DNA of 64,000 nt. It comes from Erysipelotrichaceae bacterium. GTDB taxonomy: Bacteria > Bacillota_I > Bacilli_A > Erysipelotrichales > Erysipelotrichaceae. Positions within the stretch are counted from its first letter, which is position 1. Every line of letters starts with the position of its first letter. The notes under the pieces are model-generated. The model had not been told where the DNA came from. It searched no databases and saw only the letters and a list, made by a program, of their open reading frames with translations. The position numbers and the translations under genes are program-made. Positions 29,595 to 63,003 of this stretch are shown one piece after another. The stretch lies in NCBI GenBank assembly GCA_017550145.1, contig JAFZQG010000004.1, forward strand, positions 248,001-312,000. The letters run 5' to 3'.

Positions 29595-30359
29595 ATGAAC
29601 GACGAGAGAATCAACAGAATCATTGACATTCTGGAAAAGAACGAAGGCATAGCGGTAAAAGAGCTGGCCGATTTTCTGCAGGTCTCGCAGATGACCATCA
29701 GAAGAGATATTGAAATGCTCAAGAGCAAGAATATCGTGAAGAACGTTTCCGGAGCGATCATGCTGAACAGGGATAACAATAACGCTTCGGCTTCCTATTC
29801 GCTCTTGCAGCATCTTAACGAATATTCAACCGAAAAAGAGATTATCTGCAAGAAAGCGGCATCGTTTGTGGAAGACGGAGATATCGTGTATATCGATATC
29901 GGTTCGACTGTCGCATCGATCATCGATTACTTCAACAAGAATCTCAAGATCACGGCGGTGTGCTGTACCCTGAATGCGATGACCAAACTCTACAAGAACA
30001 ATATCAACAATGTCTATATGCTTGGAGGGAAGTATCAGAGCGGCTTACAGATGTTCTATAACGAGAATAACAGGGACGATCTGAAACATATCCGGCTGAC
30101 CAAAGCCTTCATCTCGGCAGCCGGGGTTGAAGGAGACAGCGTGACCTGTGTCAATGACATCGAGGTTTCAACCAAACAGACGGCAATAAGGAACGCCGCG
30201 GAGAAATATCTGCTGGTAGACTCTTCGAAATTCGATGTGATCAAACCTTATCAGTTTGCGAAACTGGAGGACTTCGATTACATCGTTACCGATAACAAGA
30301 TATCTAAAGCGTGGCGTAAAAAGATAAAAGACTCGGGAATAAAACTGATCATAGCCTAG
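29595..30359 (+). CDS. DeoR/GlpR family transcriptional repressor
   Basis: A 254-residue regulator. The N-terminal winged helix-turn-helix is classic (RINRIIDILEKNEGIAVKELADFLQVSQMTIRRDIEML), followed by the sugar-phosphate-sensing domain (YIDIGSTVASI, MLGGKYQSG, LVDSSKFDVIKPY). DeoR-type proteins sense phosphorylated sugars; deoxyribose-5-phosphate or ribose-1-phosphate is the likely inducer given deoC and two uridine phosphorylases downstream. There is no clear SD before the ATG. deoC follows 11 bp later in the same transcript. Confidence 0.9.
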   Translation: MNDERINRIIDILEKNEGIAVKELADFLQVSQMTIRRDIEMLKSKNIVKNVSGAIMLNRDNNNASASYSLLQHLNEYSTEKEIICKKAASFVEDGDIVYIDIGSTVASIIDYFNKNLKITAVCCTLNAMTKLYKNNINNVYMLGGKYQSGLQMFYNENNRDDLKHIRLTKAFISAAGVEGDSVTCVNDIEVSTKQTAIRNAAEKYLLVDSSKFDVIKPYQFAKLEDFDYIVTDNKISKAWRKKIKDSGIKLIIA

Positions 30360-30370
30360 GAGGATAGAAA

Positions 30371-31030
30371 ATGTTTAATAAATTATTTGATCACACATTA
30401 TTGAAAGCTGAAGCGACCAGATCGCAGATCGAAAAACTGTGCAAGGAAGCCAGAGAATATGATTTCGCAACCGTCTGCGTCAATTCCTGCTATGCGGCAT
30501 ATGCCAAAGAGCTGTTGGAGGGAACTGATGTCGGAGTATGCTGTGTCGTTGGTTTCCCTCTGGGTGCCATGATCAGTGAAGCCAAGGCTTATGAAGCCAC
30601 TAAGGCAATCGAGGCCGGAGCAAGAGAGATCGATATGGTCATCAATATCGGCGCTTTAAAGGATAATGATCTGGATTATGTAACGGAAGATATCCGTAAG
30701 GTCAAGGAAGCCTGTGGTGATAATACGTTAAAAGTTATCATTGAGTGCTGTCTGCTGACTGAAGAAGAAATAGTCAAAGCCTGCGAATGTTCACTCAAGG
30801 CCAATGCGGATTTTGTCAAGACTTCGACCGGTTTCTCAAAATACGGAGCCCGCAAGGAAGATGTCGCTCTGATGAGAAAGACCGTCGGCGATAAGTGCAA
30901 GGTCAAGGCTGCCGGAGGCATCCATTCCTTAGCAGAAGTAGAGGAAATGGTTGAGGCCGGAGCTGATCGAATCGGCGCCAGCGCTTCCGTTCCTATCTAT
31001 GAGGAATATCAGGCTAAAAACAAGAGTTAA
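30371..31030 (+). CDS. deoC: deoxyribose-phosphate aldolase
   Basis: A full-length 219-residue class I aldolase. HTLLKAEAT at the start, the [12 protein letters not shown] strand (Asp88), Lys150 in DFVKTSTGF as the Schiff-base lysine, and Lys179 in KVKAAGGI are the DeoC hallmarks. It splits 2-deoxyribose-5-phosphate into glyceraldehyde-3-phosphate and acetaldehyde, the last step in using deoxynucleosides as carbon. It has an AGGAGG site and lies between the DeoR regulator and the nucleoside phosphorylases. No phosphopentomutase gene is in the window. Confidence 0.95.
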
Positions 31031-31070
31031 ATATATAAAAGAATGTTATAATAGGGTTAATGATTAAATA

Positions 31071-31107
31071 ATTACAAAATGTGATTAGTTTAACAAAAAT
31101 TTGTGAC
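31071..31107 (+). promoter_or_regulatory. candidate operator region upstream of the nucleoside operon
   Basis: Two similar sequences, TTACAAAATGTGA and TTTAACAAAAATTTGTGA, sit in tandem in the 118-bp gap after deoC. The second shares TTTAACAAAAA with the DeoR-gene operator. A TATAAT lies upstream at 31047-31052. Confidence 0.4.
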
Positions 31108-31148
31108 AATATTATCATTTATAAACAGGCCAAGTGAAGGAGAAAATC

Positions 31149-31865
31149 ATGAGTGAAGTCATGTATCACACCAAGCTGAAAGAAGGAGATATAGGCAGGT
31201 ATGTCATTCTGCCGGGCGATCCGTTTCGTACTGATCTGATCGCATCCTATCTTGATGATGCCCAGAAAATAGCGGAGAACAGAGAACACCGTTCCTGGAC
31301 CGGTTACCTTGATGGTGAAAAGGTTTCGGTCGTTTCAACAGGTATGGGCTGTCCGTCAACGGCGATCTGTGTCGAAGAACTGATGAAAATCGGTGCCGAT
31401 ACTTTTATCAGACTGGGAACAGCCGGCAGAGTCTGCGATGATGCGTTTGATCAGGAACTGATCGGTGTCATCAATACCGCAGCTGTCAGAGATGAAGGAA
31501 CTTCGGTACAGTATATCCCGATCGAGTATCCGGCGATTGCGGACAGACATGTTGTCGATGCATTGTCGGCAGCCGCTAAGAAACTCGGCTACAAGTTCGG
31601 TGAAGGCATTACCCAGTCCAAGGATTCCTTCTTCGGTCAGCATGAACCGGAGAATATGCCTGCCGAGGCAAGACTTAAAGAGAGATGGGAAGCCTGGAGA
31701 AGAGGCAATGTCATGACTTCCGAAATGGAGGCATCCACACTGTTTGTCTTGTCTTCGATCAGAGGCAAGAGAGCCGGTGCGATCATGAACTTCATCGATA
31801 TGGATAAGACTATCGAAGTAACCAGAGAAGCAATCAGGATCCTGATTGCACAGGACAAAATGTAG
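31149..31865 (+). CDS. udp: uridine phosphorylase (first of two tandem copies)
   Basis: A 238-residue nucleoside phosphorylase. ILPGDPFRTDLIA holds the phosphate-binding Gly/Asp/Arg, EHRSWTGYLDG and STGMGCPSTAICVEELM match uridine phosphorylases, and TSEMEASTLF contacts ribose. It would convert uridine or deoxyuridine to uracil and (deoxy)ribose-1-phosphate. A GTG lies in frame 15 bases upstream, but AAGGAG is between them, so the ATG at 31149 is the start. The neighbouring paralogue is very similar through most of its length, a tandem duplication that has diverged mainly after the GTAG motif. Confidence 0.9.
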   Translation: MSEVMYHTKLKEGDIGRYVILPGDPFRTDLIASYLDDAQKIAENREHRSWTGYLDGEKVSVVSTGMGCPSTAICVEELMKIGADTFIRLGTAGRVCDDAFDQELIGVINTAAVRDEGTSVQYIPIEYPAIADRHVVDALSAAAKKLGYKFGEGITQSKDSFFGQHEPENMPAEARLKERWEAWRRGNVMTSEMEASTLFVLSSIRGKRAGAIMNFIDMDKTIEVTREAIRILIAQDKM

Positions 31866-31873
31866 GAGGAAAC

Positions 31874-32611
31874 ATGCCGATCTTAACACCTGATGGTAAA
31901 CAGTACCATACTCAATTAAAAGAAGGCGATATCGGTCGCTATGTGTTTTTACCGGGTGATCCGTTCCGTACGGATCTGATCGCTTCCTTCCTGGATGATG
32001 CCAAGCTGATGGCTCATCACCGTGAACACCGTTCCTGGACCGGTTATCTGGATGGTGAAAAAGTGTCTGTTGTCTCAACCGGCATGGGCTGTCCTTCAAC
32101 GGCGATATGTCTGGAAGAACTGATCAAAATCGGCGGTGATACCTTCATCCGTATCGGCACGGCCGGTCCGGTCAAGGATCCCGATGACTGCAATAAATAT
32201 GACGGCGTTATCTGTACGGGTGCTGTCAGAGATGAGGGAACGACGATCCATTACATTCCGATCGAATATCCGGCGGTAGCGGATCGATACGTTGTCGACT
32301 GTCTGGCCAGAGCAGCCAAGGCTCATGGCCGCAACTATCTTGAAGGCTTTACCCATTCCAAGGATTCCTTCTTCTGTGAAGTCGATCCGGATTGCGCTCC
32401 ACTTGGAGACTTATGGAAGATCAGATGGAAGGCCTGGCAGAAAGGTAATGTCGCCTGTTCCGAAATGGAGGCTGCAGCACTGTTTGTCATCTCCAGTATC
32501 AGAAAGAAGAGAGCCAGCGCCATCATGAACTGGGGCGATATGGATGAAACGATCCGGATTGCCTGCGATGCCGTAAGAATAATGATTAAAGAAGACAAGG
32601 AGAAAAGATGA
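31874..32611 (+). CDS. uridine phosphorylase paralogue (second tandem copy)
   Basis: A 245-residue paralogue of the preceding gene with the same key motifs (FLPGDPFRTDLIASF, STGMGCPSTAIC, CSEMEAAALFV). Differences cluster in the segment after GTAG (PVKDPDDCNKYDGV) and in the loop around SFFCEVDPDCAPLG, which lies near the base-binding region in this family, so the two may prefer different nucleosides, for example uridine and deoxyuridine or thymidine. Its stop overlaps the start of the ECF ATPase gene (ATGA), tying catabolism to uptake. Confidence 0.88.
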   Translation: MPILTPDGKQYHTQLKEGDIGRYVFLPGDPFRTDLIASFLDDAKLMAHHREHRSWTGYLDGEKVSVVSTGMGCPSTAICLEELIKIGGDTFIRIGTAGPVKDPDDCNKYDGVICTGAVRDEGTTIHYIPIEYPAVADRYVVDCLARAAKAHGRNYLEGFTHSKDSFFCEVDPDCAPLGDLWKIRWKAWQKGNVACSEMEAAALFVISSIRKKRASAIMNWGDMDETIRIACDAVRIMIKEDKEKR

Positions 32612-33462
32612 GTAAGCCAATTATTGAATTAAAGAATTTCAGCTATCGTTATACTCATGACAGCCCGATCGTGCTGAAGAACATTACTTTCACGATCAAC
32701 GAAGGGGACTTTGTCGGTATCATCGGCTGCAACAAAGCCGGAAAATCCACACTGTGCAAATCCATCGTCGGTATTCTGCCTTTCGTTGCCGGAGGCGAAT
32801 GGGACGGTGAAGTTATAGTTGACGGCAAGAGCCTGAATGAAACAAAGGGTGAAGGAGTTACCGATGTTATCGGTATCGTCTTCCAGGATGCGGAAAGCCA
32901 GTTCACTCAGTCGACTGTCGAAGATGAGATCGCCTTTGCAATGTGCAACTTCGGCTATGATCGCGAACTGATGAGAGAAAGAGTAAGATTCGCCGCTACC
33001 GAGTGTGATATCTATGATCTGCTCGGCCGTTCGCCATATGATCTTTCCGGTGGACAGCAGCAGCGTCTGGCCGTTGCCTGTATCCTTGCCTTACAGCCGC
33101 GCGTCGTCATCCTTGATGAATCGACCAGCCAGCTGGACCCGTTAGGCAGAGACAATATCTTCAAGCTGGTTTCCAAGCTTCATGAGATGGGCAAGACCGT
33201 CATCATGGTCGACCATAATATCGAAAAGATTGCGGACTCTGCGGATAAGGTTCTCGTCTTGCACGATGGCGAAGTTGTCATGTTTGATGAGAAGCATAAA
33301 GTCTTCTCCAACAAGCAGCTGCTCAACGAACACTTCGTCAGACTTCCTCAGGTTGCGGATGCGGCCATTGATCTGAGCAAGAGTTTCAAGGGCAAGGGTG
33401 ATATTCCTATTACCCTGGAAGAAGCCGAAAAATACTTCGGTGCATTGAAGAGAGGTGCTTAA
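32608..33462 (+). CDS. ECF transporter ATPase, first subunit (EcfA-type)
   Basis: A 284-residue ATPase of an energy-coupling factor transporter. Walker A is IIGCNKAGKST (slightly atypical for the usual GxNGxGKST), the Q-loop is FQDAESQF, the signature LSGGQQQRLAVACILALQP, and Walker B VVILDESTSQLDP. ECF ATPases work as a heterodimer; the second subunit follows with no gap. Its start overlaps the second uridine phosphorylase stop. Placement in a nucleoside operon with its own S and T genes points to a dedicated (group I) ECF system. Confidence 0.92.
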   Translation: MSKPIIELKNFSYRYTHDSPIVLKNITFTINEGDFVGIIGCNKAGKSTLCKSIVGILPFVAGGEWDGEVIVDGKSLNETKGEGVTDVIGIVFQDAESQFTQSTVEDEIAFAMCNFGYDRELMRERVRFAATECDIYDLLGRSPYDLSGGQQQRLAVACILALQPRVVILDESTSQLDPLGRDNIFKLVSKLHEMGKTVIMVDHNIEKIADSADKVLVLHDGEVVMFDEKHKVFSNKQLLNEHFVRLPQVADAAIDLSKSFKGKGDIPITLEEAEKYFGALKRGA

Positions 33463-34278
33463 ATGGCTAGAGAAGTAATCAGAACAGAGAACTTGGTTCA
33501 TGTTTATCCAAACGGTAATGTTAGGGCACTTCGCGGCGTTAACATGACGATCTATGAGGGTGAAATAGTTTCCATCATCGGTCAGAACGGTTCCGGCAAG
33601 ACCACTATCGTCAGACATTTCAACGGTCTGCTCAGACCGACCGAAGGCAAGGTATATCTCTTCGGTGAAGATACAGCTAATAAGACGGTTGCGCAGATGT
33701 CACAGCGCTGCGGCTATGTCTTCCAGAACCCGAATCACCAGATCTTCTGTACGACGGTCAGAGAAGAACTGGAGATTGCCGCAAAGTATTTCAATTTTAC
33801 AGAAGAAGAGACCAGAAAGAACTGTGATGAGGTCATCGAAATGATGAATCTGAAAGACATCATCGATGCCCATCCGATGACTCTGGACTATACAACGAAG
33901 AAAGTACTGACGATCGCTTCAGTACTGGTCTTCAAGCCTGAAGTGCTTATTCTGGATGAGCCGACAGGCGGTCTGGACGAAGTCGGCAGAAGAATGCTGA
34001 CGAACGTCCTGAAGATGATGCATGACAACGGTCATACCGTTATCATCATCTCGCATGATATGGATTATGTGGCGGAGAACTCTACACGCGTCATTATGAT
34101 GGCTCAGGGGCAGGTTCAGGATGATGCAACGCCAAGAGAAATATTCAAAGATCAAGAGAAACTGAAATTCTCACAAATCGATCCACCACAGATCACGAAT
34201 CTTGATTTCTATCTCACCGATAGAAAAGAGGATTCAATATTGTCAGTTTCTGAATTCGTAAGAAAGTACGAAAAGTAA
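33463..34278 (+). CDS. ECF transporter ATPase, second subunit (EcfA'-type)
   Basis: A 271-residue ATPase starting directly after the previous stop. Walker A IIGQNGSGKTTIV, Q-loop FQNPNHQIF, Walker B VLILDEPTGGLDEVG and H-loop ISHDMDY are intact. The signature region reads LDYTTKKVLTIASVL in place of the usual LSGG, so one of the two composite ATP sites may be degenerate, as in several asymmetric ABC heterodimers. It would pair with the 32608 product on the cytoplasmic side of the transporter. Confidence 0.9.
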   Translation: MAREVIRTENLVHVYPNGNVRALRGVNMTIYEGEIVSIIGQNGSGKTTIVRHFNGLLRPTEGKVYLFGEDTANKTVAQMSQRCGYVFQNPNHQIFCTTVREELEIAAKYFNFTEEETRKNCDEVIEMMNLKDIIDAHPMTLDYTTKKVLTIASVLVFKPEVLILDEPTGGLDEVGRRMLTNVLKMMHDNGHTVIIISHDMDYVAENSTRVIMMAQGQVQDDATPREIFKDQEKLKFSQIDPPQITNLDFYLTDRKEDSILSVSEFVRKYEK

Positions 34279-34294
34279 AAAGGAGGAGAAATTT

Positions 34295-34897
34295 ATGACA
34301 ATGAAAAGTGTTGATTCTTCGAAAGGAAGACTGCGTTCAACTTACATCGCAATCATGATTCCGTTAGGAGTTGCGATCAACTACATCGGCGGTCAGTTAG
34401 CCAGTAGTTTAAGTTTACCGATCTACATGGATTCCATCGGTACAGCTATCGTTGCTGCAATCATGGGCCCATGGGTTGGTGCTGCTTCAGGTGTCCTGTT
34501 CAATATTATCTCTGCTTTAGTCGGCGGTAATATCATGGCCTCATTATTCGGTATCTGCAACATCGGTACTGGTCTGATCGTTGGTTACATGGCACGTATG
34601 GGTAAATTCAAGAAGTTATGGCCGGATGTAGTAATCGCTTCGATCCTGGTTGCTGTATGGAATGCTGCTACAGGTGCTCCTATTGCTATGGCTGTTTATG
34701 GTGGTATCGACGGCAACGCCGGCACAAACATCATGATCGCTGCTATGCAGAACATGGGCAGAGACTTATTCAGCTCAGCTTTCCTGGCTCGTATTCCTAC
34801 CAACTTACTCGATAAGGGTATCGCATGTGTTGTTGCTTGGCTGATCTTAAGCAAGCTTCCTGAAAACATGCAGAACCTGAACGGTAAAAAAGCTTAA
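34295..34897 (+). CDS. ECF transporter substrate-binding (S) component
   Basis: A 200-residue integral membrane protein with about six helices. After a basic N-terminus it reads LASSLSLPIYMDSIGT, then an Ala/Gly-rich helix pair (GPWVGAASGVLFNIISALVGG) and DKGIACVVAWLILSKL at the end. Small S proteins of this kind bind the vitamin or nucleoside substrate and topple in the membrane during transport. Gene context (two uridine phosphorylases, deoC, DeoR) suggests a pyrimidine nucleoside or deoxynucleoside. It is clearly similar to the N-terminal domain of the HD-GYP protein at 60465. Preceded by AAGGAGGAG. Confidence 0.87.
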   Translation: MTMKSVDSSKGRLRSTYIAIMIPLGVAINYIGGQLASSLSLPIYMDSIGTAIVAAIMGPWVGAASGVLFNIISALVGGNIMASLFGICNIGTGLIVGYMARMGKFKKLWPDVVIASILVAVWNAATGAPIAMAVYGGIDGNAGTNIMIAAMQNMGRDLFSSAFLARIPTNLLDKGIACVVAWLILSKLPENMQNLNGKKA

Positions 34898-34937
34898 TTA
34901 AATAATTATTTAAAAATAATAAGAAAGGGTTAGACTT

Positions 34938-35747
34938 ATGTTACAGACTCGTAAACAAGATACAATACTGCAAAAACTGCTGCCTTCAACGAAACTGTGG
35001 GTAGCGCTGGCATTGATTCTGGCCGTTATGCTGATAAGAAATTATGCCTTATCTTTCATTGTGATCGGAATCAGTATTGCATTGATATTTTACGAGAAAA
35101 AGACCGACCTGTTTAAGCTTATTGTCGTAACGATGGTGGTAATGTTCTTTTCGATGTACGGTATCCACGGTGCCATTGCCCCTAACATCGATAAAGCCAA
35201 TGATCCGGTATTGTTTTCGATCTTTGGAATCGACTATTATCTGAATGGTTTCAAATACGCATCCCACTACTATCTGTGCGTTATCCCTCTGATGTGTTCG
35301 CTGTTCCTGCTGTTCACTTCAATGGATATGGCGGATCTGGGTGCCACGATGTGTCAAATGGGACTGCCATACAAAGGTGTCTTCACCTTTATCGATTCCT
35401 TCCAGGTAATGAAGCTGTTAGGCAAGGAAATGAATCAGATCCGTGATGCCCAGAGGGCAAGAGGTCTGGAAACCGAGGGTAATCTGCTTGCGAGATTCAA
35501 GGCATTTATCCCGATCATGGTACCGGTTGTTGCCAGTTCCATCGTCAAGGTTCAGGACCAGGCTATTGCCATGGACACCAAAGGCTTCAACTCCCTGAAT
35601 AAAAAGACCATCTACCGCGAGCTTATTCCATCAGCTCTGGATAAACTGATCAAAGTTATATCCATACTGGTTTGTGTTGGAACACTTGCGTATGTGATCC
35701 TTTCCAAGATGGGAATAATCAGCCCGTTTATGACAAACATTATTTAA
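34938..35747 (+). CDS. ECF transporter transmembrane (T) component
   Basis: A 269-residue membrane protein with about five to six helices and the coupling helices typical of EcfT: IRDAQRARGLE (the A-R-G motif) and AIAMDTKGFNS. It connects the S component to the ATPase pair. It has a GAAAGGG site and closes the nucleoside operon with a strong terminator. With the genes at 32608, 33463 and 34295 it makes a complete four-gene transporter. Confidence 0.9.
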   Translation: MLQTRKQDTILQKLLPSTKLWVALALILAVMLIRNYALSFIVIGISIALIFYEKKTDLFKLIVVTMVVMFFSMYGIHGAIAPNIDKANDPVLFSIFGIDYYLNGFKYASHYYLCVIPLMCSLFLLFTSMDMADLGATMCQMGLPYKGVFTFIDSFQVMKLLGKEMNQIRDAQRARGLETEGNLLARFKAFIPIMVPVVASSIVKVQDQAIAMDTKGFNSLNKKTIYRELIPSALDKLIKVISILVCVGTLAYVILSKMGIISPFMTNII

Positions 35748-54309: not shown

Positions 54310-57300
54310 ATGAAAAGAAACGGAAAGATAAAGATAATCCTGTCATTACTCGTAGTTTTTGTTATGAGTATGAGTTTCATCAGACCTCTTGAAGCTCATG
54401 AAGTAACCGAAGAAGACTTCACTGACAACCACACCAGTGTTGAAGCGGTTCTTTATGACAATACCAACGGTCTGCCTACTTCCGAGGCTAATGCGATTAC
54501 GCAGACTTCGGAGGGTTTCATCTGGATCGGCGGTTACAGCGGTCTGGTCAGATATGACGGCAATTCTTTCTATCTTTATCCGTCGAGCCTTGGTATTGCG
54601 AGCGTTTTGACTTTATATGTCGACTCAAGAGACAGACTGCTGATCGGTACCAATGAAAACGGCGTTTCGATCCTCGACAACAACACTTTTATTCATGTGA
54701 CCAGAGAAGACGGACTCAGATCTTCTTCGATCAGAAATTTCGTTGAAGACTCTGAGGGCAATATCCTTTTAGGTATGGGCCAGGGTCTGGATTATCTGGA
54801 TAAAGACAATAATCTGCATCAGATCCTCGATTCCCGTACCGACACCAAGACGATCACGCGTCTGGAGAAGACTGACAGCGGTATGATCTGGGGTCTGACC
54901 GGAGATGGCGACGTCTTTACGGTTGAAAATTTAAAAGTCAAAGAATTTTACAGTGTTTCTTCCATCGGTTTGGGAACAATCTTTTCGATCCGTCCAGATG
55001 ACATTAATGAAGGTTATGTCTATCTGGGTTTAGAGGATAACAGAGTTGTCTATGCGGATCTGAAGAATATGGAAGAGGCTATAACTTATGAGACCGGTGA
55101 ACAGAGCAAGATCAACTCTATCCATATTATTAATAAAGATATCTGGCTCTGTGCCAATAACGGCATCGGTTTCATCAAAGATGGTGTCTACCATGAGTAT
55201 AAAGATGTACCTCTGAACAACTGTATCGATCATATGATGGTCGATATGGAAGGAAACCTCTGGTTCACTTCTTCAAGACAGGGTGTCATGAAACTGGTCG
55301 AGAACCGTTTCACGGATATTTCCGCTATGGCGGATCTTGATGCACTGGTAGTAAACAGCACTCATATCTATGACAACGATCTGTATATCGCCTGTGAGAC
55401 AGGTCTGGTCGTTCTGGATAAGAACAGTTACGAAATAAAAGAGAATGCGGTTTCGGAATTATTGAAGACCGACCGTATCAGAAGTATATATGAAGACAGT
55501 AAAGGTCAGCTGTGGTTCAACTCCAACGGTGATAACGGATTAGTCTGTTATGATCCTAAGAGTGATGAATATGTGAAGTATACAGTCGATGACGGATTGG
55601 CTTCCAATAAGCCGCGTCTGTGTATCGAATTAAGAGACGGCAGTATGGCAGTCGCGACCAATAATGGTCTCAATATCATCAAAGACGGTGTTATCACTAA
55701 AACCTATGACGAAAAAGACGGTATAAGCAACGTCAAGCTGCTTTCCCTGATTGAAGGAGAAAACGGTGAGATCATAACCGGCAGCGACGGTGACGGTATC
55801 TATATCATCGAAAACGGTTCGGTAAGCAAGGTATCGCTTGATGAAGGTCTGGCTTCGGAAGTCATCATGAGGATCAAGAAAGATCCAATTGACAGTTCGC
55901 TTTACTGGATCGTTACAAGTAACTCGCTGGCTTATATGAAAGACCGTCAGGTCACGACCATTACGAAGTTCCCGTATTCGAATAACTTCGACCTCTATTT
56001 CTCCAAGAATAATGAGATGTGGGTCTTAAGCGGAAACGGTATCTATGTGGTCGACAGAGAAGCGATGCTGAAGAATGAGGAAATTAGATATTCCTTCTAT
56101 GATGCTTCATGCGGTTTACCATACATAACCACTGCCAACTCCTATTCCTATCTGGCCAAGGATGGCACGCTTTATATTTCCGGTACCTCCGGTGTTGCCA
56201 GTATGAATATCAATGATGATTCAACGGATAAGACCAAGCTGAAGATCTGTATTCCGTATGTATACTGTGATGATACCTATATCGGCACGCTCAACAGTGA
56301 TACTGTCACGATCCCGGCAGATTGCCAGAGACTGACGATCGGAGCCTTTGCGTTTACCTATTCATTAAGTAATCCGTATCTTAGTTATCAGCTGGAAGGT
56401 TTCGATAAGGATGCCAAGATCATCACCAGAAAAGAACTCGGTGACATCAGCTATACCAACCTGGATGGCGGAACCTACAAGTTCAGGATGTCACAGATCG
56501 ATAATGTCACCGGACAGGTCTACAGGGAATTCGTGCTGACGATCATCAAAGAGAAAGCCATCTATGAACAGCCATGGTTCTGGGTACTGATGGTATTGCT
56601 GGGCATAGGAATCGTTGCAGGATCATTAGTGATCTACTACCGCCGTAAGACCAAACTGCTGGAAAAGAAAGCGGAAGAAAACAGAAAAATGATTTCCGAG
56701 ATGTGCGATGTCTTTGCGAAGTGTATCGATATGAAAGACCGCTATACCAACGGTCACTCTTCAAGAGTTGCGAAGTATACCTGCATGATTGCGGAAAGAA
56801 TGGGTAAGACAAAAGAAGAGCTTGAGGATATCCATAACATTGCACTGTTACACGATATCGGCAAGATCTCGATCCCAGACAACATTCTGAATAAGCCTGG
56901 TAAGCTTGATGACAACGAATTCGTCGTCATGAAGAACCATGCGAAGCGCGGCTTTGAGATCCTTAAGGAAGTCAGCATCGCTCCGGATCTGGCTATCGGT
57001 GCCGGTTATCACCATGAGCGTCTCGATGGTAAAGGTTATCCGTTCGGTCTCAAGAAAGAAGAGATCCCGGAGATTGCCCAGATCATTGCAGTCGCGGATA
57101 TGTTCGATGCGATGTATTCGACCAGACCTTACCGTAAAGGCATGGAATTAAGCAGGATTGCGGAAGAGATGGAAAAAGTCAAAGGTACGCAGCTTAATGA
57201 AGAAGTCGTCAACATCATGGAAGAACTGATCAAGGAAGGCAAGTTCGATAACGAATGGCCGGAAAACAAGCCGGAAAATAAAGAAGAAAAATCAGAATAA
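54310..57300 (+). CDS. membrane sensor HD-GYP protein with extracytoplasmic beta-propellers
   Basis: A 996-residue protein. A signal/anchor helix (residues about 8-25) leads to two sets of regulator-propeller repeats (GLPTSEANAITQTSEGFIWIG, GLASNKPRLCIELRDG), then a Y_Y_Y-type beta-sandwich (LSNPYLSYQLEGFDKDA) and a TM helix near residue 760. The cytoplasmic HD-GYP domain is intact: His848-Asp849 in LLHDIGK and HHERLDGKGYP from residue 901. This layout parallels hybrid two-component sensors but outputs c-di-GMP hydrolysis. The propellers may sense polysaccharide or oligosaccharide; ligand unknown. No SD is visible. Confidence 0.9.
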   Translation: MKRNGKIKIILSLLVVFVMSMSFIRPLEAHEVTEEDFTDNHTSVEAVLYDNTNGLPTSEANAITQTSEGFIWIGGYSGLVRYDGNSFYLYPSSLGIASVLTLYVDSRDRLLIGTNENGVSILDNNTFIHVTREDGLRSSSIRNFVEDSEGNILLGMGQGLDYLDKDNNLHQILDSRTDTKTITRLEKTDSGMIWGLTGDGDVFTVENLKVKEFYSVSSIGLGTIFSIRPDDINEGYVYLGLEDNRVVYADLKNMEEAITYETGEQSKINSIHIINKDIWLCANNGIGFIKDGVYHEYKDVPLNNCIDHMMVDMEGNLWFTSSRQGVMKLVENRFTDISAMADLDALVVNSTHIYDNDLYIACETGLVVLDKNSYEIKENAVSELLKTDRIRSIYEDSKGQLWFNSNGDNGLVCYDPKSDEYVKYTVDDGLASNKPRLCIELRDGSMAVATNNGLNIIKDGVITKTYDEKDGISNVKLLSLIEGENGEIITGSDGDGIYIIENGSVSKVSLDEGLASEVIMRIKKDPIDSSLYWIVTSNSLAYMKDRQVTTITKFPYSNNFDLYFSKNNEMWVLSGNGIYVVDREAMLKNEEIRYSFYDASCGLPYITTANSYSYLAKDGTLYISGTSGVASMNINDDSTDKTKLKICIPYVYCDDTYIGTLNSDTVTIPADCQRLTIGAFAFTYSLSNPYLSYQLEGFDKDAKIITRKELGDISYTNLDGGTYKFRMSQIDNVTGQVYREFVLTIIKEKAIYEQPWFWVLMVLLGIGIVAGSLVIYYRRKTKLLEKKAEENRKMISEMCDVFAKCIDMKDRYTNGHSSRVAKYTCMIAERMGKTKEELEDIHNIALLHDIGKISIPDNILNKPGKLDDNEFVVMKNHAKRGFEILKEVSIAPDLAIGAGYHHERLDGKGYPFGLKKEEIPEIAQIIAVADMFDAMYSTRPYRKGMELSRIAEEMEKVKGTQLNEEVVNIMEELIKEGKFDNEWPENKPENKEEKSE

Positions 57301-57327
57301 AGAAAAGAAGCTTATTGCTTCTTTTCT
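57301..57327. terminator. bidirectional terminator
   Basis: AGAAAAGAAGC and GCTTCTTTTCT, an 11-bp stem with a 5-nt loop, between convergent genes and overlapping the end of the PIN-like gene. Confidence 0.82.
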
Positions 57328-58115
57328 TCTGACAGACGGTAATAATTGGCCAGTTCTTTTTTGATCTGGGTATATATCTCCAGACCTTTTTCTCTCTTGA
57401 ACTTACGGACCAGTCCGCGATAGATATAATTCTTATCTTCACGTTTCTCTTCAGGAACCTTATCCAGATATGTTTTGATCTTTTCGATCTCATTATCCTC
57501 AAGATCCTTCAGTACTCTTTTCAGCAGTTCCTGATGACCTTCGCTTTTGACGGCGGCAGGGGCAGAAACGGTCTTCTTCTTTACGGATTTCACCTTCGGG
57601 GAAGACACGGATTTTTGCGGAAAAGACTGTTTTTCGTCTTCCTTGATTTCTTTCTTCTTGATTACTCTGATTTCGGAATCAGGTTTCGCAACAGGTTTTT
57701 CTTCAGCCTGTTTCTTTACCGTTTTAATTCTGCGGTGTTTCTTTTCTTTTTCCGGTTTGGTGTTGATCCTTTGGACATCATAGCCCTGGCTCTTCCAGTA
57801 TTCGATGACGTGATCATAACCGGTATCCTGCGAAACGATCGTATAGGATGAATGTCTGTTCTTGCCGATCAGATAACCCAGATAGGAAGAAAGATAGAAA
57901 TCAAGGGAGTTTTTACCTGGTTCACATTCGATGATGTTGATCTTGTGACGACGCTCTTCAGTCAGTTCTCTTAACAGTGAGAAATTCAGACTCTTCGCAT
58001 TTTCGGTAACACAGATATAAAGTTCGAACTTTTCGTCACCTTTTAGCAGATAGGTCCAGGTTGAACCGACGTTTTCACTGTCTATCAGATAAGCGGGTAC
58101 TTTGGTAAATAACAT
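57312..58115 (-). CDS. PIN-like (NYN-type) nuclease domain protein
   Basis: A 267-residue protein. Residues 1-120 resemble a PIN-like fold: YLIDSENVGSTW (Asp12, Glu14), GKNSLDFYLSSYLGYLIG (Asp72) and IVSQDTGYDHVIEYW (Asp97, Asp101) are the acidic residues expected to hold a metal. A Lys/Pro-rich flexible region (about 120-195) follows, then a small helical C-terminal domain (HQELLKRVLKDLEDNEIEKI). RNA cleavage is typical of this superfamily. AAGGGGG lies before the ATG. Partner or target is unknown. Confidence 0.75.
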   Translation of the reverse strand: MLFTKVPAYLIDSENVGSTWTYLLKGDEKFELYICVTENAKSLNFSLLRELTEERRHKINIIECEPGKNSLDFYLSSYLGYLIGKNRHSSYTIVSQDTGYDHVIEYWKSQGYDVQRINTKPEKEKKHRRIKTVKKQAEEKPVAKPDSEIRVIKKKEIKEDEKQSFPQKSVSSPKVKSVKKKTVSAPAAVKSEGHQELLKRVLKDLEDNEIEKIKTYLDKVPEEKREDKNYIYRGLVRKFKREKGLEIYTQIKKELANYYRLSEEKKQ

Positions 58116-59110: not shown

Positions 59111-60373
59111 TCAGAGATCCGGTGTATAGAACTTGTAGTTGGCTTTGCCACACGCCTTGGCATGGTACAGAGCCTTATCAGCTGATTTGTATAATTCTTC
59201 GAAGGTCTTGCCGTCTTCCGGGAAGCGGGCAATACCGATAGATAAGGATACATAGCCTTTTAAGATATCGTTGTCGAAGACATGCATAGCCTGATTCTCA
59301 ATATGTTCGGCCATCGTACAGATATCTTCGTTACTGTCGATATCTTTGAGATAAACGACGAATTCATCTCCGCCGATCCTTCCTGTAACATCCATGCCTT
59401 TGGTGTTGGAGTGTAAGATCTGTCCGATCGTAATCAAGACATTATCACCGGAGGCATGACCGAAAGTATCATTTATCTCCTTGAAACGGTCACAGTCTAC
59501 CATCATTAAAGCGCCGTGGCTTCCTTCTTCGCGCAGGATATCTTTGATGGCTTCTTCGGTAGCAGAACGATTCAGGATGCCGGTCAAGGCGTCACTGCGT
59601 GATCTTTTTTCCAGTTCCTGTTTCAGCATCTGCATTTCCGTAACGTCGTTGATTAGCGCGATGATACCGTTGACATTTCCTTCGGCGTCATGGGTTGGAC
59701 GCTTGATCAGTTCCAGATATTCTTTGACTCCGTCTTCGTTCTCTTCAATGATATAGGATGTGCCTTTACCGGTTCTGATGATTTCCTTATCGGACTCCAT
59801 AGCCTTCATGGCATTCTGTTTATCTTTACGGATATCGATATCGGATTTGCCACGGATAGTCCAGTTCGGGTCACTAGACATATCCAGATGATGCCAGTAA
59901 TGAGTTGAAAAGACATAACGGCAGTCTTTGTCCTTGAGATAGATCAGAGATGGTAATTCCTGAAGCATTCTTTCGATTTCAAAGAAGGTTGCGGAGTCTT
60001 TGGAGCGGATCGCATTATTGACTCTGAGTAAGACGATATCTTTGTTGAAAGGCGGGACCATATATTCATTGACGTTATGTTCGATCAGTGTTTTACATTC
60101 TGTTTCATCCGGTTCAGCTGAAACCGCGATGGCGGAAATATCGGCGAAGCGTTTGTCTTCTTCGAGTTTGTTCAGGATCGAAAAGTCTTCACTTATTTCT
60201 CTTTTTCCATCAAAAAGAACTGCCGCAATTTCTAATGAAGAATCGTTCAGTTTCTTCAGTACTTCTTCTTTCGTGTCATATTTCAGTAAGGAATAATCAG
60301 ACGAAAGGATGGACGGCAGTTCAATATATTCTTCTCTATCAGGTAAGTAAATGATCAGATCTTTTTTGGCCAT
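59111..60373 (-). CDS. diguanylate cyclase with receiver-like and PAS domains
   Basis: A 420-residue cytoplasmic protein. Residues 1-130 follow a receiver-like fold (VLFDGK where the phospho-acceptor Asp would be, VSAEPDE and MVPPF), residues about 135-255 form a PAS domain, and the GGDEF domain (about 258-420) is active-looking with RIGGDEF at 332-338. The feedback I-site RxxD is KGMD (325-328), so classic product inhibition may be lost. A TATAAT ends 11 nt before the ATG with no SD. It would make c-di-GMP in the same neighbourhood as three phosphodiesterases. Confidence 0.9.
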   Translation of the reverse strand: MAKKDLIIYLPDREEYIELPSILSSDYSLLKYDTKEEVLKKLNDSSLEIAAVLFDGKREISEDFSILNKLEEDKRFADISAIAVSAEPDETECKTLIEHNVNEYMVPPFNKDIVLLRVNNAIRSKDSATFFEIERMLQELPSLIYLKDKDCRYVFSTHYWHHLDMSSDPNWTIRGKSDIDIRKDKQNAMKAMESDKEIIRTGKGTSYIIEENEDGVKEYLELIKRPTHDAEGNVNGIIALINDVTEMQMLKQELEKRSRSDALTGILNRSATEEAIKDILREEGSHGALMMVDCDRFKEINDTFGHASGDNVLITIGQILHSNTKGMDVTGRIGGDEFVVYLKDIDSNEDICTMAEHIENQAMHVFDNDILKGYVSLSIGIARFPEDGKTFEELYKSADKALYHAKACGKANYKFYTPDL

Positions 60374-60464: not shown

Positions 60465-62621
60465 ATGAATAAGAAGGTAAGAAGATACAGTTTTTCAACC
60501 GGTTTCGCATTCGGGACACTTTTTATATTTTCCGGAATCGTTCTTAACCTGCTCGGTTCAAAGATTGCGGTCAGTCTGAACTTACCGCTTTTCCTTGACA
60601 GTATCGGAACAATACTGGTTTCGGCGATGAGCGGTATCATGCCGGGTGTCGTTGTCGGTTTCCTGTCCAACATGATCAACGGACTGGTCAGTGCAGACAA
60701 TGTCTACTATGGTGTGCTGAATGTTCTGATAGCGGTGGTAACGGGTTATTATGCCAGCCGCGGCTATTTTCAGAAACTGCCTAAAGCCTTGCTGCTGGTC
60801 TTCCCTTATTCACTGATCGGCGGAGCACTTGGTTCAGTCATCACTTCACTGATTTACGGTTTCGGTTTCGGTGAAGGTATTTCTGCTCCTTTGGCTCATA
60901 AGATCTATGAAGCAGGCGGTGCCGGTATTTTTATTTCACAGCTGATTGCAGATATGCTGATAGACATCGCAGACAAGTTTGTCACGATCATCATTGTCTA
61001 TTTTGTCTTAAAGCTGCTTACTAAATATTTCGGTGACACTCTGGAATATCATCCATGGCACCAGAAGCCTTTGTCTAAAGAAGATCAGGAAGAATCGTCT
61101 TCGGATGTCTCTTTCATGATGTCCTTACGTTCCAAGATCTTACTAATCATTACCGCCGCAGTTGTCTTCATTGCACTTGTTACAGCGGGCATAAGCTTTA
61201 TGCTCTATCACAATGCGACGGTTGAAGAACACACCCAGCTGGGTGTCGGTGTTTCCAAACTGATCGCTTCAGTTGTCGATGGTGATAAAGTCAATGACTA
61301 TATCAAGCACGGCGAAGCTATCTATGACTATAAACTTACGGAAGATCGTCTGGAAAAGATCAGAGGTACTTCCGATGATATCCTTTATGTCTACGTCTAT
61401 CAGATCAAAGAAGACGGCTGTCATGTCGTATTCGATCTAGATACCGAAGATACACCGGGTGGTGAGCCTGGCGATTTAGTAGAATTTGATGAGGCTTTCA
61501 TGCCTTACTATGACGATCTGATCAATGGCCGTCCGATCTCTCCGATCGTTTCCGATGAAACTTTCGGTTGGCTTCTGACGATGTATGAGCCGGTCATCGA
61601 CTCTTTCGGAGTAACGCAGGCCTATGCTTGTGTTGATATCTCCATGAGCAGAGTGACTCTGAATGAGATCAGCTTCCTGACCAAAGTCGTTTCACTGTTC
61701 TTCGGCTTCTTTATCGTTATCGTCACAATCGGATTATGGCTTTCGGAATACAATCTGGTATTACCAATCAACACGATGGCTATGGCTGCCCGCCGTTTTG
61801 CGAATAAGATCGGCGGTGACCGTCAGGAAAGCGTCAGAAACTTCAAGGAACTGCAGATCAATACCGGTGATGAGATCGAGAACCTGTATGAATCGTTCTC
61901 GATGACTATCGAAGAAACTGTTAAATATATTGCGGATGTGCAGAAACAGGCTCTGGTCATCAATAAGATGCAGAATGGCCTGATCCTCGTACTGGCCGAT
62001 ATGGTCGAAAGCCGTGACCAGTGTACCGGCGACCATGTCCGTAAGACCGCGGCGTATTGCCGTCTGATCATGAACCAGTTACGCAAAGACGGTGAGTTCT
62101 CGGATGTTCTGAGTGACGAATATATTGAAGATGTCGTCAACTCCGCACCTTTACATGATATCGGCAAGATCAAGGTTCCGGATGCGATCCTCAACAAGCC
62201 TGGTCGTCTGACCGACGAAGAATTCGAAGAGATCAAGAAACATACCTTAGCCGGTAATGAAATCATCCAGCAGGCTATGGAGCTTGTATCTTCAGACTCA
62301 AGTTATCTGAAGGAAGCCAAGAATCTGGCAACCTACCACCACGAGAAGTGGAACGGCAAGGGTTATCCGATGGGTATTTCCGGTGATGATATTCCGCTTT
62401 CCGCCCGTATCATGGCGGTTGCGGATGTCTTTGATGCTCTGGTCTCACGTCGAAGCTATAAGGAGCCTTACAGTTTCGAAAAGGCAATGGAAATTATTGA
62501 GGAAGGATCAGGAAACCATTTCGATCCGCGAATCGTTAAAGCCTTCAAAGAATCCTCAGAAGAAGCCCGCAAGATTTCCGAAACCTTCATGGGCGTAGGA
62601 AGCGAAGAGAACAAAGCATAA
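60465..62621 (+). CDS. HD-GYP phosphodiesterase with ECF S-component-like membrane domain
   Basis: A 718-residue protein. Residues 1-200 are a six-helix membrane domain resembling the nucleoside-operon S component: SLNLPLFLDSIGT here against SLSLPIYMDSIGT there, with further matching positions through both domains. Residues about 222-425 hold two TM helices around a Cache-like extracytoplasmic domain (VGVSKLIASVVDGDKVNDYI), then a HAMP-like linker (430-500). The HD-GYP domain has His564-Asp565 in LHDIGK and HHEKWNGKGYP (from 625), where the usual Asp is Asn. It should cleave c-di-GMP in response to one or two ligands. AGGAC precedes the ATG. Confidence 0.88.
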   Translation: MNKKVRRYSFSTGFAFGTLFIFSGIVLNLLGSKIAVSLNLPLFLDSIGTILVSAMSGIMPGVVVGFLSNMINGLVSADNVYYGVLNVLIAVVTGYYASRGYFQKLPKALLLVFPYSLIGGALGSVITSLIYGFGFGEGISAPLAHKIYEAGGAGIFISQLIADMLIDIADKFVTIIIVYFVLKLLTKYFGDTLEYHPWHQKPLSKEDQEESSSDVSFMMSLRSKILLIITAAVVFIALVTAGISFMLYHNATVEEHTQLGVGVSKLIASVVDGDKVNDYIKHGEAIYDYKLTEDRLEKIRGTSDDILYVYVYQIKEDGCHVVFDLDTEDTPGGEPGDLVEFDEAFMPYYDDLINGRPISPIVSDETFGWLLTMYEPVIDSFGVTQAYACVDISMSRVTLNEISFLTKVVSLFFGFFIVIVTIGLWLSEYNLVLPINTMAMAARRFANKIGGDRQESVRNFKELQINTGDEIENLYESFSMTIEETVKYIADVQKQALVINKMQNGLILVLADMVESRDQCTGDHVRKTAAYCRLIMNQLRKDGEFSDVLSDEYIEDVVNSAPLHDIGKIKVPDAILNKPGRLTDEEFEEIKKHTLAGNEIIQQAMELVSSDSSYLKEAKNLATYHHEKWNGKGYPMGISGDDIPLSARIMAVADVFDALVSRRSYKEPYSFEKAMEIIEEGSGNHFDPRIVKAFKESSEEARKISETFMGVGSEENKA

Positions 62622-62697: not shown

Positions 62698-63003
62698 ATG
62701 TTAGAGAATAAGAAAGTAAACAAGCTTAATGAAGATGAACTTGAAGAAGTCAGCGGCGGGTTTTCTAGAGGCCCACAGTATTTAATGACAAAGAGAGGCT
62801 ATGGTGAAATTGCTTTACTCTCTAAGAACGAATGGTCATTAAACAACATAATAAGACTGATACCGGGAGGAAAACAGGTATTTACAAGCGGCATTGATGC
62901 TCCTGGAAAGGACATCAACGGAAATACTATTACCTTTTTAAATTGCAGTTATGATGGTGAATGGGGATTTATAAACAGCAATATGCTTGAGGAGTGCGAA
63001 TAG
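62698..63003 (+). CDS. double-glycine leader peptide with SH3-like mature domain
   Basis: A 101-residue protein starting with NKLNEDELEEVSGG, a textbook double-glycine leader recognised by C39-peptidase ABC exporters. Cleavage would release an 80-residue product, FSRGPQYLMTK onward, whose strands end with DGEWGFINSNML, as in bacterial SH3 domains, rather than a short cationic bacteriocin. GGGGAG precedes the ATG. No C39 transporter, immunity or modification gene is nearby, so the exporter must be elsewhere. Role (bacteriocin-like, signalling or wall-binding) is open. Confidence 0.72.
   Translation: MLENKKVNKLNEDELEEVSGGFSRGPQYLMTKRGYGEIALLSKNEWSLNNIIRLIPGGKQVFTSGIDAPGKDINGNTITFLNCSYDGEWGFINSNMLEECE

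Follow-up and report, generated by a model that had tools for sequence, protein, structure and literature searches.

S components are the membrane subunits that capture nutrients for ECF import pumps. Receptors with the S-component fold are grouped as 5TMR-LYT (PF07694; YpdA/PyrS, BtsS and LytS). The evolutionary origin of S components and receptors has been called elusive, with no conclusive trees buildable, and the two were linked in 2024 through predicted structure (PMC11109136). True S components carry an AXXXA motif in helix 1, with which they dock on EcfT (PMC11109136). No paper was found on an S component fused to HD-GYP, nor one naming CD3073 together with an ECF transporter, and a 2022 review of c-di-GMP sensing makes no mention of ECF, S components or 5TMR.

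We analyzed a stretch of DNA of 64,000 nucleotides, designated the “window”, in which one open reading frame encodes a 718-residue protein designated the “receptor” (Table 1). It resembles 5TMR-LYT proteins in using an S-component fold as a membrane receptor, in having no AXXXA motif, and in the modular outputs and cytoplasmic signaling output. It differs from them in that its N-terminal domain does not match PF07694 up to E 10 and has neither H0 before H1 (the first helix, residues 10–37, is H1) nor an NXR motif in residues 1–60; for these reasons membership of 5TMR-LYT was rejected. The domain is instead related by sequence directly to a named S family, and HD-GYP is absent from the outputs named in the main text of PMC11109136, although its supplementary tables may list one.

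With that named family, the CD3073 S components (NF045596), the receptor shares its best match (residues 24–187), the six-helix fold and N28, D45, G48, N69, D170 and K171, but it falls below the curated cut-off, is fused to sCache and HD-GYP, has lost the docking positions and has no adjacent ECF module. FolT, ThiT and RibU have the fold in common with the receptor S domain at about 13–15% identity, but are transport subunits. Cache-sensor HD-GYP phosphodiesterases correspond to the other half of the protein (TM-sCache-TM-HAMP-like-HD-GYP, with intact motifs), in front of which the receptor adds an S component. Judged from sequence, the receptor appears to work like 5TMR-LYT proteins but to be a new, sequence-level variant of S-fold receptors.

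Domain composition of the receptor

Table 1. Coordinates of the receptor, its parts and the window genes discussed in the text.
Feature	Window positions	Strand	Basis
718-aa receptor: S-component domain - TM - sCache - TM - HAMP-like linker - HD-GYP	60465..62621	+	ORF and domain searches, models
S-component domain, residues 10-193 (helices 10-37, 47-56, 58-75, 83-98, 112-131, 155-193)	60492..61043	+	NF045596, AlphaFold, Foldseek
Lost EcfT-docking (AXXXA) positions, helix-1 residues 22 and 26 (F, V)	60528..60542	+	Mapped to FolT AMVIA via PDB alignment
Receptor-specific linker WxQxP[LM] (W198-L203), after helix 6	61056..61073	+	Motif counts
Transmembrane helix 7, residues 215-251	61107..61217	+	Hydropathy; helix also in model
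Predicted extracytoplasmic single-Cache (sCache/PAS-like) sensor, residues about 252-394	61218..61646	+	AlphaFold, Foldseek
Transmembrane helix 8, residues 399-435	61659..61769	+	Hydropathy
HAMP-like linker, residues 430-478	61752..61898	+	PF00672, sub-threshold
HD-GYP phosphodiesterase domain, residues 509-690	61989..62534	+	PF13487 5.6e-35; motifs
Stand-alone S component, nucleoside-type ECF transporter	34295..34897	+	NF045596 3.6e-40; ecfA/ecfT neighbors
PAS-GGDEF diguanylate cyclase, divergent, 91 bp from receptor gene	59111..60373	-	TIGR00254 GGDEF 2e-39
Reg_prop propeller - Y_Y_Y - HD-GYP with signal-type N-terminus; S-less counterpart of the ~1200-aa receptor class	54310..57300	+	Domain search

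The initial annotation had likened the first ~200 residues of the receptor to the stand-alone S component at 34295–34897. BLASTP aligned the two with 50/169 identities (52% positives, 76.6 bits, E 1e-20), so that the likeness extends beyond the 42 residues of that annotation to the entire domain, which ends near residue 193; the proposed match between the closing helices (DK...VLKLL) is also real. For both proteins the best S-type match in NCBIfam was NF045596 (ECF_S_CD3073), at 80–84 bits (1.2e-22 to 1.3e-23) for the receptor and 137 bits for the stand-alone S component. Note that both miss the equivalog cut-off of 180 bits; at only 83.6 bits, the receptor is no CD3073 orthologue.

To exclude membrane-protein bias, we based an HMM solely on 12 stand-alone S components. 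Among 1501 ORFs, the window ORF scored 116.5 bits (9e-35) under this HMM, compared with a maximum of 15.4 bits for 2000 local shuffles (12-residue blocks) and about 11 bits for E. coli YpdA/PyrS, a 5TMR-LYT protein. Profile-profile alignment of receptor and transporter S domains with hhalign gave a probability of 99.9 and an E-value of 1.5e-36, and a profile of 27 S domains matched FolT chains in the PDB (1.9e-5 and 8.8e-5). Chance similarity was thus ruled out by the shuffles, the solo-only HMM and hhalign. Pfam has no family for the N-terminal domain, so a reading based on Pfam only would miss it, and no other family in Pfam or NCBIfam outscored the S-type match on these residues. The comparison with ECF S families that had been proposed as a check therefore returned an S family as best match and no unrelated sensor family. 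The N-terminus is a genuine S-component-derived domain.

The S domain was modeled with AlphaFold from five sequences only (that of the window and those of related loci), yielding six helices with a pTM of 0.73. All of the top 12 Foldseek matches in the PDB were S components (ThiT, RibU, BioY and the S chain of an ECF complex), with probabilities of 0.87–1.00, TM-scores by target of up to 0.67 and weak E-values of 0.08–0.43. The six-helix S-component topology, on which the initial annotation had let its assignment depend, is present in the predicted fold.

Hydropathy revealed two further strong transmembrane helices flanking a region that precedes HD-GYP. This region was predicted by AlphaFold to form a PAS-like domain (pTM 0.65), for which Foldseek returned the KinD sensor, the formate-binding sCache 8py0, CitA and DcuS. 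Its identity came from the fold search: Pfam Cache had no match anywhere in the whole receptor, and a PDB sequence search with the region gave poor, irrelevant matches only. The earlier view of the S domain as sensor stood in part, in that this domain is there but the separate TM-sCache-TM sensor (residues about 220–435) had been overlooked. Due to this second, extracytoplasmic sensor, the S domain can be no more than one of two inputs.

The HAMP match (PF00672) is sub-threshold both in the window receptor (E 0.13) and in its orthologue L101 (E 0.0075). At the C-terminus, where Pfam names HD_5 (PF13487) and HD, with HAMP weak, the HD-GYP signatures HDIGK and HHEKWNGKGYP are intact. From hydropathy, the full-length topology closes: the six S helices start and end inside, TM7 leads out, sCache lies outside, TM8 leads back in, and the HAMP-like segment and HD-GYP are inside.

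Two small genes lie close by. Directly 3′ of the receptor gene, 62698–63003 (+) encodes a 101-residue protein with a double-glycine type leader (ELEEVSGGF) and a sub-threshold Bacteriocin_IIc match (E 0.11). Adjoining the c-di-GMP genes, 57312–58115 (−) encodes a 267-residue protein with a low-complexity middle rich in Lys, Glu and Pro. At gathering scores, the window has no Rfam match.

Relatives, outputs and phylogeny

Among the S domains sampled, 78 of 175 sit in long proteins. The receptor architecture recurs in L056, L057, L058, L060, L101, L104 and others; a scan of GTDB contigs placed the first three of these in Clostridia, at 41–46% identity. Profile searches of genomes, with match lists read, found long frames with a strong S match in about 52/250, 33/200 and 15/198 genomes of three families. 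In the window's own family, 146 genomes yielded just one GGDEF fusion besides the window protein. In the family of L056, all strong matches were receptors and the profile search found no strong stand-alone S component of CD3073 type, so receptors do not need a CD3073-type transporter. Note that conservation in a broad S-domain alignment was too low for search patterns.

Pfam scans were performed on 28 long proteins, other long frames being judged by length only. HD-GYP was found in 18 of the 28, either with sCache, without an extracytoplasmic domain or with a Reg_prop beta-propeller, and three of the 18 also had a receiver domain. Six others were hybrid histidine kinases; a seventh kinase, L105, has a weak S match (5e-7) and was left out of trees. 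The remaining three had a GGDEF domain (L059), an ion channel (L218) and no in-frame output domain (L212). Neither Cache nor propeller accompanies the S domain in L102, L059 and L219. The proposed search for other HD-GYP or GGDEF proteins with this N-terminus thus turned up many, including both kinds: S-domain receptors are common, with mostly HD-GYP, GGDEF or hybrid kinase outputs among the 28 scanned. Eight candidate fusions were discarded: L106, L088, L083, L094, L081 and L082 are stand-alone S components with an extra upstream frame, L063 is FtsW/RodA-like and L064 is another S-type protein.

Several of these proteins deserve description in their own right. L059:2577-4154 (+), in genome G134, fuses an S component to a GGDEF diguanylate cyclase, the opposite c-di-GMP output, directly after a MurQ/GKRP-like SIS gene. 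The hybrid histidine kinases L207, L211, L214, L215, L216 and L226 have 900–1630 residues and carry their CD3073-type S domain close to the N-terminus; in some it is accompanied by sCache-like or beta-propeller sensors. L218:122-1453 (+), in genome G974, combines an ion channel (PF00520, 8.8e-26; potassium-type selectivity filter TTVGYGD) with a C-terminal S domain (NF045596, 1.6e-8); it is possibly an unusually built ligand-gated channel, known from a single locus on a long branch.

In trees of 81 and 175 rows, stand-alone S components divide the receptors into two clades, and in both trees the starred branches force two state changes. In the 81-row tree, the sCache/HD-GYP/GGDEF group is one branch (100/98) adjoining the stand-alone L002 (of this genome) and L038 (together 100/99). 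The propeller group forms its own branch (100/99), with ten other stand-alone S components (99/98). When other S families serve as the outgroup, each receptor clade falls within stand-alone S components, although the outgroup branches are long and the root is tentative. An ecfT gene is adjacent in sisters L002, L038, L083, L088, L119, L132 and L183, and none is shown for L194. Because both clades nest among mostly ecfT-linked stand-alone S components, the simplest reading is a change from transporter to receptor, made twice; recruitment of an S component as a receptor by gut bacteria probably happened two times.

Docking positions, transporter operons and ligand

The docking motif was located by placing FolT AMVIA on the window protein through a PDB alignment. 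The receptor has F22 and V26 at the AXXXA positions, and the motif is therefore lost. Among stand-alone S components, 67/95 combine Pro or a small residue at 22 with a small one at 26, versus 5/44 and 3/34 members of the two clades of receptors (8/78 receptors), counts that are phylogenetically non-independent and amount to two events. The family's polar membrane residues N28, D45, N69, D170 and K171 are retained in the window receptor; all 78 receptors have D45, D170 and K171, while N28 is found in 75/78 and N69 in 74/78. From their conservation and position, these five residues would line the predicted binding pocket. Loss of docking positions with retention of polar residues is the pattern expected if binding was kept and transport given up.

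The fetched locus contains ecfT for 66/97 stand-alone S components versus 1/78 receptors, most receptor loci ending before the sequence downstream of the long ORF. No ecfT or ecfA was found in the 20-kb stretch around the receptor gene (L062). The description of the domain as S-like but without its transporter is thus supported by the neighborhood and by helix 1. The linker WxQxP[LM] following helix 6, found in 27/44 clade-A and 0/34 clade-B receptors, is a candidate signal-transmission element.

Two ECF modules with related S components are present in this genome. In the window, the S component lies between ecfA-ecfA (32608–34278) and ecfT (34938–35747), with udp and deoC upstream and a second udp-like copy at 31874–32611. 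The receptor's closest transporter in this genome is not this operon but the second one, on contig C36: the tree joins the receptor with that operon (PfkB kinases, BtpA and M24; 100/99) and places the 34295 S component elsewhere. In the receptor's sister group, PfkB-type kinases, BtpA and M24 are encoded in L061, L112 and L231, and BtpA in L227. Due to these neighbors, the receptor may bind a different, though related, nucleoside or sugar. The gene order S-T-A-A with two PfkB kinases, BtpA/SgcQ and M24 (L061, 7861–13771; L112, 3280–9716) is a second type of ECF operon, conserved between two genera.

ECF operons of the CD3073 family (L114, L228, L237, L238, L239 and window 29595–35747) are repeatedly found with uridine phosphorylase, deoC or inosine-uridine nucleoside hydrolases: two such hydrolases in L114, udp in L228, L237, L238 and L239, and deoC also in L238. 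These neighbors suggest that the CD3073 S family imports nucleosides, and from transporter gene neighbors we infer a nucleoside-like ligand for the receptor. The claim that the ligand is of the same type as that of the nucleoside operon accordingly fared unevenly. It is plausible in that the wider CD3073 family looks nucleoside-related, but the tree places the receptor with the PfkB/BtpA/M24 operon and not with the Udp/DeoC operon.

Proposed mechanism and alternatives

The protein is likely to be a two-input membrane receptor controlling c-di-GMP breakdown, consisting of a CD3073-type S component turned receptor and an sCache sensor. The S domain would probably capture a small extracellular solute, most likely nucleoside-like; capture is probably maintained because the polar membrane residues are retained. 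Without the EcfT-docking surface of helix 1, no transport would follow. Helix 6 would continue through the short cytoplasmic linker W198-x-Q-x-P-L into TM7, and the sCache domain outside, which would bind probably a small carboxylate, would be followed by TM8, the HAMP-like segment and HD-GYP. Ligand binding would change the conformation of the S domain and, together with sCache, set the activity of an HD-GYP dimer. Of the elements of this model, the domain identities, the fold, the lost docking positions, the retained polar residues, the intact catalytic motifs and the division into clades are what the analysis shows; dimerization, the ligand class, and the fact and direction of HD-GYP control are those that we infer.

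If instead the S domain were a fold-keeping membrane anchor or dimerization module, the signal would pass via sCache alone. A complete second sensor is indeed present, and the S-less propeller HD-GYP protein of the same window indicates that one extracytoplasmic sensor suffices for the output. An anchor would not need the polar membrane residues, however, and these are near-invariant in 78 receptors of two clades; moreover, since L102, L059 and L219 have no Cache or propeller, the S domain is their only candidate outside sensor. We consider an anchor improbable. Less probable still is continued docking of the fused S domain on an ECF module, shared or dedicated, with the transport state reported to HD-GYP. 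Two ECF modules with related S components in the genome, and a sequence similarity to true S components that is high for this class, are in its favor, but it is difficult to reconcile with the lost docking positions, the near absence of ecfT from receptor loci relative to stand-alone S components, and a bacterial family with many receptors but no strong stand-alone S component of CD3073 type. The TM7-sCache-TM8 segment would also be expected to hinder toppling.

The propeller class bears on whether the receptor is merely a divergent 5TMR-LYT member, which we regard as very improbable. The fold is common to both (PMC11109136), and propeller-class L103 and L223 pass the PF07694 threshold (1.5e-5 and 3.8e-8), but these domains match NF045596 far better (6e-23 and 2.6e-24), YpdA has no match to NF045596, and the window domain lacks the three 5TMR-LYT features listed at the outset. 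At the sequence level, these propeller-class relatives bridge the 5TMR-LYT and CD3073-type S families. As to what is bound, the receptor might sense the very nucleoside imported by the udp/deoC operon at 34295. The common family profile and polar residues, and the recurrence of udp, deoC or nucleoside hydrolases in CD3073-type operons, lend this some plausibility, but with the receptor grouped by the tree with the other operon it is unlikely.

For the two-input receptor, several consequences follow. The link between S components and receptors now becomes direct in sequence, both being in one tree with two conversions and living sister pairs, and these pairs make the change from transporter subunit to receptor testable by chimeras and point mutants. 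A ligand class is suggested for the many c-di-GMP phosphodiesterases and hybrid kinases that have lacked an explanation in Clostridia and in relatives of the window genome, and nucleosides are suggested for the CD3073 transporters, whose substrate is left open by NCBI. More tentatively, and with slightly less than even confidence, Bacillota may have converted nucleoside-binding S components from transport subunits to receptors on two or more occasions, giving rise to a widespread family of dual-input sensors in which S domains, paired with sCache or beta-propellers, would couple nucleosides outside the cell to c-di-GMP breakdown and to phosphorelays, the loss of the docking motif and the retention of the binding site being traceable in sequence.
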